Positions 47,382 through 49,872 of a stretch of 64,000 bases of DNA are shown in pieces. Below the pieces are notes generated by a model. That model was not told the DNA's origin and made no database searches. It saw only the letters and a program-made list of their open reading frames with translations. The stretch spans positions 1 through 64,000 of the forward strand of contig CAIOGZ010000092.1 of NCBI GenBank assembly GCA_903858015.1. Reading direction: 5' to 3'. The position numbers and the translations under genes are program-made. The stretch comes from an uncultured cyanobacterium. GTDB taxonomy: Bacteria > Cyanobacteriota > Cyanobacteriia > PCC-6307 > Cyanobiaceae. Every line of letters begins with the position of its first letter. Position 1 is the first letter of the stretch.

Positions 47382-47463
47382 GGCAGTCGGATCACAGAAC
47401 CAGAGCGCAGACTAAGGGGGCTAGCCGCCGCCGCGACCACCGGTTTTGAACCCTTTCGCCCCA

Positions 47464-48336
47464 ATGCCAGCTGCCATGCCCGCCGCCAGCCCAGCCCCCG
47501 ATCCCGGCACCACCAGCAGCACCGCCAGCGCAGCGGATGGCGGCTTGCTGATCGGCGGCAAACCCTTCCGAAGCCGGCTGATGACCGGCACCGGCAAGTA
47601 CCCCTCCCTGCTGGTGATGCAGGCCAGCCTGGCGGCCAGCGGCTGCGAGATCGTCACCGTGGCGGTGCGGCGGGTGCAGAGCCAGGCCCCCGGCCACGGC
47701 GGCCTGCTTGAAGCGATCGACTGGAGCCGCTTCTGGATGCTGCCCAACACGGCCGGTTGCGCCAGCGCCGAAGAGGCCATCCGGGTGGCCCGACTGGGGC
47801 GGGAACTGGCGAAGCTGGCCGGCCAGGAAGACAACAACTTCGTGAAGCTGGAGGTCATCCCCGACAGCCGCCATCTGCTGCCCGATCCGATCGGCACCCT
47901 CCAGGCCGCCGAGCAACTCGTCAAGGAGGGCTTCACGGTGCTGCCCTACATCAATGCCGACCCCCTGCTGGCCCGCCACCTGGAGGAGGCCGGCTGCGCC
48001 ACGGTGATGCCGCTGGGTTCGCCGATCGGCTCCGGCCAGGGCATCCGCAACGCCGCCAACATCGCCCTGATCATCGAGAACGCCCGCGTGCCGGTGGTGG
48101 TGGACGCCGGTATCGGCGTGCCGAGCGAAGCGGCCCAGGCGATGGAGATGGGCGCCGACGCCCTGCTGATCAACAGCGCCATCGCCCTGGCGGGGGATCC
48201 GGCGGCGATGGCCAGGGCCATGGCCCTGGCCTGTGAGGCGGGCCGCACCGCCTTCCTGGCAGGGCGGCTGCCGATCCGCGCCGAGGCCAGGGCCAGCTCC
48301 CCCCTGGAGGGAAGGCTGGTCCAGGCCGGGCCCTAA
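47464..48336 (+). CDS. thiG: thiazole synthase
   Basis: Forms the thiazole phosphate of thiamine from deoxyxylulose phosphate, dehydroglycine and ThiS thiocarboxylate. [55 protein letters not shown] (Schiff-base lysine) and [20 protein letters not shown] are diagnostic. About 30 Ala/Pro/Thr-rich residues precede the conserved GGKPF start; ATG 47464 is preferred over TTG 47446, and ATG 47476 is possible. 290 residues from the chosen start. Confidence 0.95.
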
Positions 48337-48419
48337 GCCCAGTGTGAAGCGTCTGTGACAAATCCGGCCGCGACGGGCTTGCAGCTGAACCCCGGTCCAT
48401 AGGGTTCCGGCACCCGCCC

Positions 48420-48593
48420 ATCTCCCGCAGACAGGTCAGCGAAGCAGACGGCGGCAGGCTCAATGCCTTCGCCAAGGAACCCCGCCTGGTGGTGATGGAC
48501 AGCGGTGATACGAACGGCCCCAACCGCCTGCTGCTGATCGGCGGCGTAGCCCTGCTGGCGCTGCTGCTGGCCGTGGCGGCCGGCAGCAGCTGA
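48420..48593 (+). CDS. Psb34/Ssl1498-like small membrane protein, start codon unclear
   Basis: An open frame ending at TGA 48591-48593 encodes a short protein: a hydrophilic half with SEADGGRLNAFAKEPRLVV, then one transmembrane helix, LLLIGGVALLALLLAVAAG. The E-x-GG-(R/K)-LN-x-FA-x-EP pattern followed by one helix is that of the Ssl1498/Psb34 family, which binds CP47 during photosystem II assembly. The frame is open from 48348, but no ATG, GTG or TTG precedes the conserved segment. The coordinate given is an ATC at 48420; translation may begin at a non-standard codon, or the start may be lost. It is too short and oddly started for routine gene finding. Confidence 0.6.
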   Translation: MSRRQVSEADGGRLNAFAKEPRLVVMDSGDTNGPNRLLLIGGVALLALLLAVAAGSS

Positions 48594-48675
48594 TCCAGCC
48601 GCATGGTCCCGGAGCCACCGGGCTTAAGGCCTGTAGTAGCTTGCCATCGGGCAATGGCTCGACCAGGAGACAGGG

Positions 48676-49872
48676 GTGAAGGTTCTCGTTCTCGGCGGCG
48701 ACGGCTTCTGCGGGTGGCCCTGTGCGGTGAACCTGTCGGATGCCGGCCACGACGTGGTCATCGTCGACAACCTCAGCCGGCGCAAGATCGACATCGACCT
48801 TGAGGTGGAGTCGCTGACGCCGATCAGCACGATCAGCGAACGGCTGCGGGCCTGGGACCAGGTGGGCGGCAAGGCGATGCGCTTTGTGCACCTCGATATC
48901 GCCCGCGAGTACGACCGGCTGCTGGAGCTGCTCCGCAGTGAACGGCCCGATGCGGTGGTCCACTTCGCCGAACAGCGGGCCGCCCCCTATTCGATGAAGA
49001 GCAGCGCCACCAAGCGCTACACGGTGGACAACAACGTCAACGGCACCCACAACCTGCTGGCCGCCATCGTGGAGAGCGGCCTGGATGTGCACATCCTCCA
49101 CCTGGGCACGATGGGGGTGTACGGCTACGGCTCCCATCGGGGAGCCACGATCCCCGAGGGCTATCTGACGGTGGAGGTGCCCCAAGCCGATGGCAGCCGC
49201 TTCACCGAGAAGATCCTGCACCCCACCGATCCGGGCAGCGTCTACCACATGACCAAAACCCTGGATCAACTACTGTTTTATTACTATAACAAAAACGATT
49301 CGGTTCGGGTCACCGATCTACACCAAGGCATTGTCTGGGGTACCAACACCGCCCTCACCGATCGGGATCCCCGCCTCACCAACCGCTTCGATTACGACGG
49401 CGACTACGGCACGGTGCTCAACCGCTTCTTGATGCAGGCGGCCATTGGCTATCCCCTCACCGTCCACGGCACCGGCGGCCAAACCCGCGCCTTCATCCAC
49501 GTGCGCGATTCGGTGCGCTGCGTCCAACTAGCGCTCGAGAATCCCCCCACCCCTGGCGAAAAGGTGAAAATCTTCAACCAGATGACCGAAAGTCACCAAG
49601 TGGGCCAACTGGCCCAAAAGGTGGCCGATCTAACCGGGGCCGAGATCCGCTTCCAGGCCAATCCCCGCAAGGAGGCGATCGAAAACGACCTGATCGTGGA
49701 CAACCGCTGCTTCATTGAGCTGGGGCTCAAGCCCACCACCCTCGATGACGGCCTGCTCGCCGAAGTGGTCGATGTTGCCCGTCGCTGGGCCGACCGCTGC
49801 GACCGCTCCCGCATTCCCTGCCTTTCGGCCTGGACCACGCGCCAGGCGGAAGCCCTGCGCACACCCGCCTGA
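48676..49872 (+). CDS. sqdB: UDP-sulfoquinovose synthase
   Basis: Makes UDP-sulfoquinovose from UDP-glucose and sulfite for the thylakoid sulfolipid SQDG. GTG start after AGGAGACAGGG; the protein opens with VLVLGGDGFCGWPCAVNLSD, the SQD1/SqdB Rossmann loop. HFAEQRAAPYSMKSSATKRY, LHLGTMGVYGYGSHRG, YHMTKTLDQLLFYYYNKND (catalytic Tyr/Lys) and DLHQGIVWGTNT are family hallmarks. Length 398 is normal. sqdX follows after 16 bases, forming the usual two-gene sulfolipid operon. Confidence 0.97.
   Translation: MKVLVLGGDGFCGWPCAVNLSDAGHDVVIVDNLSRRKIDIDLEVESLTPISTISERLRAWDQVGGKAMRFVHLDIAREYDRLLELLRSERPDAVVHFAEQRAAPYSMKSSATKRYTVDNNVNGTHNLLAAIVESGLDVHILHLGTMGVYGYGSHRGATIPEGYLTVEVPQADGSRFTEKILHPTDPGSVYHMTKTLDQLLFYYYNKNDSVRVTDLHQGIVWGTNTALTDRDPRLTNRFDYDGDYGTVLNRFLMQAAIGYPLTVHGTGGQTRAFIHVRDSVRCVQLALENPPTPGEKVKIFNQMTESHQVGQLAQKVADLTGAEIRFQANPRKEAIENDLIVDNRCFIELGLKPTTLDDGLLAEVVDVARRWADRCDRSRIPCLSAWTTRQAEALRTPA

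Follow-up and report, generated by a model that had tools for sequence, protein, structure and literature searches.

The question raised by this locus is whether a psb34-like reading frame that lacks a standard start codon is a gene with an exotic start or a gene that has lost its start. The frame lies on the forward strand of the window, by which we mean the whole stretch of 64,000 nucleotides that was analyzed. Inspection of the open reading frames showed it to be open over 81 codons (48348 to 48593), up to a TGA stop codon at 48591 to 48593. It also confirmed the claim of a preliminary description that no ATG, GTG or TTG stands ahead of the conserved part of this Psb34-like frame, as the earliest canonical in-frame start is the GTG at 48489 to 48491 (+), downstream of the conserved DGGRLNAFAKEP. 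From the analyses below, the most likely reading of the window psb34 is that of a recently dead gene, without an exotic start.

A profile built on ten Psb34 proteins of the genus matched the frame with an E value of 8.6e-26 over model positions 2 to 54, i.e., without the Met, whereas the NCBIfam model NF033486 (Psb34) gave 35.9 bits (E value of 4.9e-9), under its curated cutoff of 45 bits. By itself, NF033486 is a weak test for psb34, as genes similar to those of high-light-inducible proteins (HLIPs) also match it; one such gene of the same genome scored 38.0 bits, slightly above the window frame, and weak matches were found in 12 of 14 control genomes. A Pfam search of the frame returned no family. 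Alignment showed the N-terminal DGG[RK]LNAFAKEP motif and one hydrophobic, helix-like stretch, the helix being predicted from the sequence only, and no HLIP stretch. Thus, like Psb34 (Ssl1498, NF033486), the frame encodes the DGGRLNAFAKEP motif with a single hydrophobic stretch after it, in about 54 residues, at a locus shared with the psb34 genes of the relatives. It differs from Psb34 by its missing start codon, its score under the curated cutoff and changed residues at positions that nearly all relatives conserve. Its N-terminal motif is very similar to that of the HliA/B-type HLIPs, from which it is set apart by the absence of an LNGRMAM stretch. Judging from its sequence, the frame is a true relative of Psb34 and no chance match, the homology being clear with the genus profile.

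In the window, as elsewhere in the genus, the order is thiG-psb34-sqdB. The homologous coding region, including the TGA, spans 48429 to 48593 (+) and is described here as a psb34 remnant on the basis of homology and relaxed constraint (see below). It is preceded by an intact open reading frame at 47446 to 48336 (+), which we take to be thiG-like, and followed by another at 48676 to 49872 (+), presumably sqdB-like; ThiG-like and SqdB-like proteins also adjoin psb34 upstream and downstream, respectively, in the relatives that were read.

We compared the start region across the genus, using 42 genomes including that of the window, 34 of the others having psb34 in place. At exactly the homologous codon, all 34 congeners have ATG, and the window has AGA (48429 to 48431, +). 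The surrounding sequence leaves little ambiguity, with ATG followed by CAG or CAA, GTN and AC in the relatives and AGA CAG GTC AGC in the window. Four genomes (G021, G026, G029 and G038) had no ThiG-like match and are therefore uninformative on psb34; their assemblies apparently do not include the locus, part of a SqdB-like gene being present in G021. Among 299 confirmed relatives in named genomes, the best 80 loci comprise 79 with ATG and 1 with TTG. This is a top-scoring and not an independent sample, as many of these loci come from genomes already counted among the 34, and three belong to a single strain. The sole TTG-started psb34 among those 80 is L103. As it stands, the frame thus lacks the start codon expected of a translatable gene, and no non-canonical start is conserved in the relatives. 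Of the options considered in the preliminary description, the loss of the start is the one supported.

To place the change, we relied on a thiG-sqdB concatenation tree (50 rows), whose backbone is weakly supported in parts, without effect on the group of the window. The window groups with G022 and G007 with a support of 98, and G034 comes next with a support of 100. These three nearest relatives have all kept ATG, so the start change most simply occurred on the window's own branch and, among the genomes compared, belongs to the window lineage. A lesion without counterpart in the nearest relatives is what a pseudogene would present.

A conserved leader or promoter-like box, CCATAGGGTT, lies at 48397 to 48406 (+), and its CCATA is present in all 35 sequences compared, that of the window among them; the extended form CCATA(A/G)(C/G)GT is present in the window and in 34 relatives. 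This box is possibly a promoter element, judging from its conservation; scans of 48200 to 48800 gave no sigma-70 promoter match, at the box or elsewhere in that interval, and no terminator. In all 35, it ends 26 to 31 bases 5' of the start codon, and the corresponding spacing to AGA in the window is 27, indicating that AGA, and not the ATC at 48420 to 48422 (+), marks the old start. That ATC had been proposed as a candidate start. However, G034 has an in-frame ATC 9 bases upstream of its real ATG, the same distance as in the window, and an in-frame ATA at -30, inside the CCATA box, precedes the ATG in five other relatives (L006, L012, L014, L021 and L155), as it does the AGA in the window. Since relatives with a genuine ATG have them in frame as well, these triplets represent ordinary leader sequence. 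The comparison of upstream regions suggested in the preliminary description therefore yielded a lost ATG, present in 34 of 34 relatives, and left the proposed ATC/ATA start unsupported, all the more so as constraint on the protein is relaxed. We also considered that ATC 48420 might be the old ATG shifted by a 9-base insertion, and rejected this on account of the CCATA spacing and of the ATC at -9 in G034.

A Shine-Dalgarno-like tetramer was found within 20 bases of the start in only 2 of 35 leaders, that of the window not being among them. As nearly all leaders of the genus are without such a site, initiation of psb34 probably depends on AUG. Prokaryotic AUG starts have been described as being under purifying selection, and switches from AUG to GUG or UUG as tending toward compensation by a stronger Shine-Dalgarno sequence (PMC5622118).

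We then asked whether the protein is still constrained. In a comparison with 80 other distinct Psb34 proteins, 20 columns are conserved at 95% or more; the window departs from 5 of them, the next highest count being 2. The departures are T4S, E6A and M20L and, nearer the C terminus, V to L and I to S. At a threshold of at least 97%, it departs at 3 of 18 columns (next, 1), and at 1 of the 13 invariant columns, a count matched by two or three other rows. In a second set of 41 distinct rows, the window psb34 departs at 5 of 26 conserved columns, followed at 4 of 26 by WH7803, an outgroup. In the same genome, ThiG departs at 2 of 196 columns (rank 6 of 49) and SqdB at 2 of 300 (rank 13 of 48); comparison of psb34 with these two neighbors gave a Fisher p value of 2e-5, with a conservation threshold of the analyst's choosing.

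Substitution ratios were summed over pairs for the 33 genus genomes in which all three genes could be used, 2 of 35 (L007 and L149) being left out as they have no usable neighbor gene. For psb34, pN/pS was 0.715 in pairs involving the window and 0.407 in other pairs, the window being the highest of 33. For thiG plus sqdB, the values were 0.188 and 0.156, and the window was barely the highest of 33 (next, 0.187). With pN alone, it ranked 2 of 33 for psb34 and 3 of 33 for thiG plus sqdB. At positions where the three nearest relatives agree, the private differences of the window psb34 are 5 nonsynonymous and 1 synonymous; the same count gave 2 and 6, respectively, for G034, and 0 and 1 for L018 against four others. 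Taken together, these sequence comparisons point to a constraint on the window psb34 that is relaxed relative to the neighboring genes, as would be the case for a pseudogene, on the basis of small numbers. Counter-evidence is that, by the same measures, the window's neighbor genes also evolve rather fast. Decay appears to be slight, with the core DGGRLNAFAKEPR unchanged, no stop codon or frameshift, and 81 codons open.

Three other explanations need to be weighed against a lost gene, and we consider all of them unlikely. Full-length or nearly full-length Psb34 might be made at a low level from a non-canonical start, i.e., the ATC at 48420, the in-frame GTC at codon 3 (48435 to 48437, +), a theoretical candidate given the sigR precedent below, or the AGA itself. 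Such starts exist, as infC begins with ATT in Escherichia coli and with ATC in Streptomyces, and sigR begins with GTC (PMC5472188). As in those genes, the conserved part of the window frame is not preceded by ATG, GTG or TTG; the frame is also open upstream, and the CCATA leader box has been retained. The resemblance stops there, as the homologous codon is ATG in the relatives and constraint on the protein is relaxed, with replacements at conserved Psb34 positions. The 20 bases that precede AGA contain no Shine-Dalgarno-like tetramer, which, with the leader-like nature of ATC and ATA, makes this explanation an improbable one. Its most elaborate version, in which low-level Psb34 from AUC 48420 or GUC 48435, held down by initiation factor 3, would reset the balance between Psb34 and HLIPs on CP47 through a start-codon change and not through gene loss, seems to us very doubtful. 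More generally, an absent start codon is by itself no evidence for a new kind of initiation.

It is just as hard to credit a truncated, helix-only peptide initiated at GTG 48489, or at ATG 48495, with AAGGA at 48474 to 48478 as the ribosome-binding site. The GTG is in frame and would yield a product of 34 residues that includes the helix, and AAGGA, which belongs to the former coding region, ends 10 bases ahead of it. However, this product would be without the conserved N-terminal motif, which is reported to contribute to the binding of photosystem II (PSII) assembly intermediates (PMC9458560), and conserved columns are altered in both its helix and its C terminus (V to L and I to S). As for a sequencing or assembly error, the start region is known from a single assembly of 100 contigs, and no second record of the strain was found in searches that may omit records of the genome itself. 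Nevertheless, two wrong bases would be needed in one codon, and the other unusual replacements, which are concentrated in psb34, would be left unexplained; the chance that the missing start is an artifact therefore seems slim.

We thus favor, with good confidence, the view that the window psb34, a dispensable gene, recently became a pseudogene through loss of its start and is now decaying. An ssl1498-type psb34 of what is, judging from named relatives, a Cyanobium-like cyanobacterium, in its usual place between thiG and sqdB, would have been inactivated by a change from ATG to AGA on the branch leading to the window genome. Transcription of the region may continue, given that both the CCATA box and the reading frame have been kept, and loss of the AUG should abolish the synthesis of full-length Psb34. 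If the pseudogene reading is true, no GGRLNAFAKEPR-type peptide should arise from the psb34 frame. Our literature search found no paper on psb34 as a pseudogene, nor on cyanobacterial pseudogenes created by start-codon loss.

Work on Synechocystis provides a context for dispensability. According to that report, Psb34 has an N terminus in common with HliA and HliB, with which it probably also shares a binding site on CP47 (PMC9458560). Psb34 presumably displaces them from CP47 in the course of PSII assembly. The psb34 deletion strain was described as growing much like the wild type, with no apparent growth phenotype, and HliA/B enter PSII in it; of the Psb34-less strains, which differed in the presence of HliA or HliB, a single one grew more slowly, in intermittent light, namely that also without HliA (PMC9458560). 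By analogy with that deletion, HLIPs would keep the CP47 site in the window organism in the absence of Psb34.

No second psb34 turned up when the genome of the window was searched with the window peptide, with NF033486 and with the genus profile, so that the intact copy elsewhere envisaged in the preliminary description did not materialize. The other matches were two genes on contigs C91 (19837 to 19980) and C88 (2908 to 3048), which we presume to be HLIP-like, and weak matches at C92:13652 and C20:23249. These two HLIP-like genes share the N-terminal motif of Psb34; their match to the genus profile is confined to it (model positions 3 to 23), and both carry LNGRMAM. In the C88 gene, VP replaces EP in the motif. 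No further record of the mutated stretch was found in viral contigs.

The window is not the only member of the genus with a psb34 lesion. In G040, a deletion has taken the CCATA box and the N terminus of psb34, both deletion ends carrying GGAGCC, and in G037, a deletion that spares the CCATA box has left only the last part of the gene. G041 has no psb34 between thiG and sqdB, a reading that rests on a short thiG-sqdB gap whose junction is poorly placed in the alignment. These are draft assemblies, 90, 95 and 84% complete for G040, G037 and G041, respectively. G040 is sister to G031 (support, 100) and G041 to G024 (support, 99), both of which have kept psb34, and G037 stands outside the latter pair (support, 100). 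The separate branches imply four separate lesions, including that of the window, unless psb34 was regained. Thus, psb34 has probably been lost repeatedly in the genus. The window pseudogene is probably young. The four lesions, each different and each in its own lineage of the one genus, constitute, beside relatives that keep the gene, a natural knock-out series for a PSII assembly factor. As the Synechocystis deletion showed no apparent growth phenotype, the strains with lesions could reveal when Psb34 is dispensable. From the match list, there was no clear pattern between psb34 loss and extra HLIP copies. Among small-genome members of the family, seven of nine had matches with E values of 0.001 or better, which may be HLIPs. 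Two genomes, G126 and G258, have two and three strong psb34-type matches, respectively, on different contigs, reflecting duplication or a mixed assembly. Finally, a stretch of the form TGTAGTAG(C/T)TT, at 48632 to 48642 between psb34 and sqdB, recurs in those relatives for which this gap was printed, and is a possible sqdB promoter candidate.
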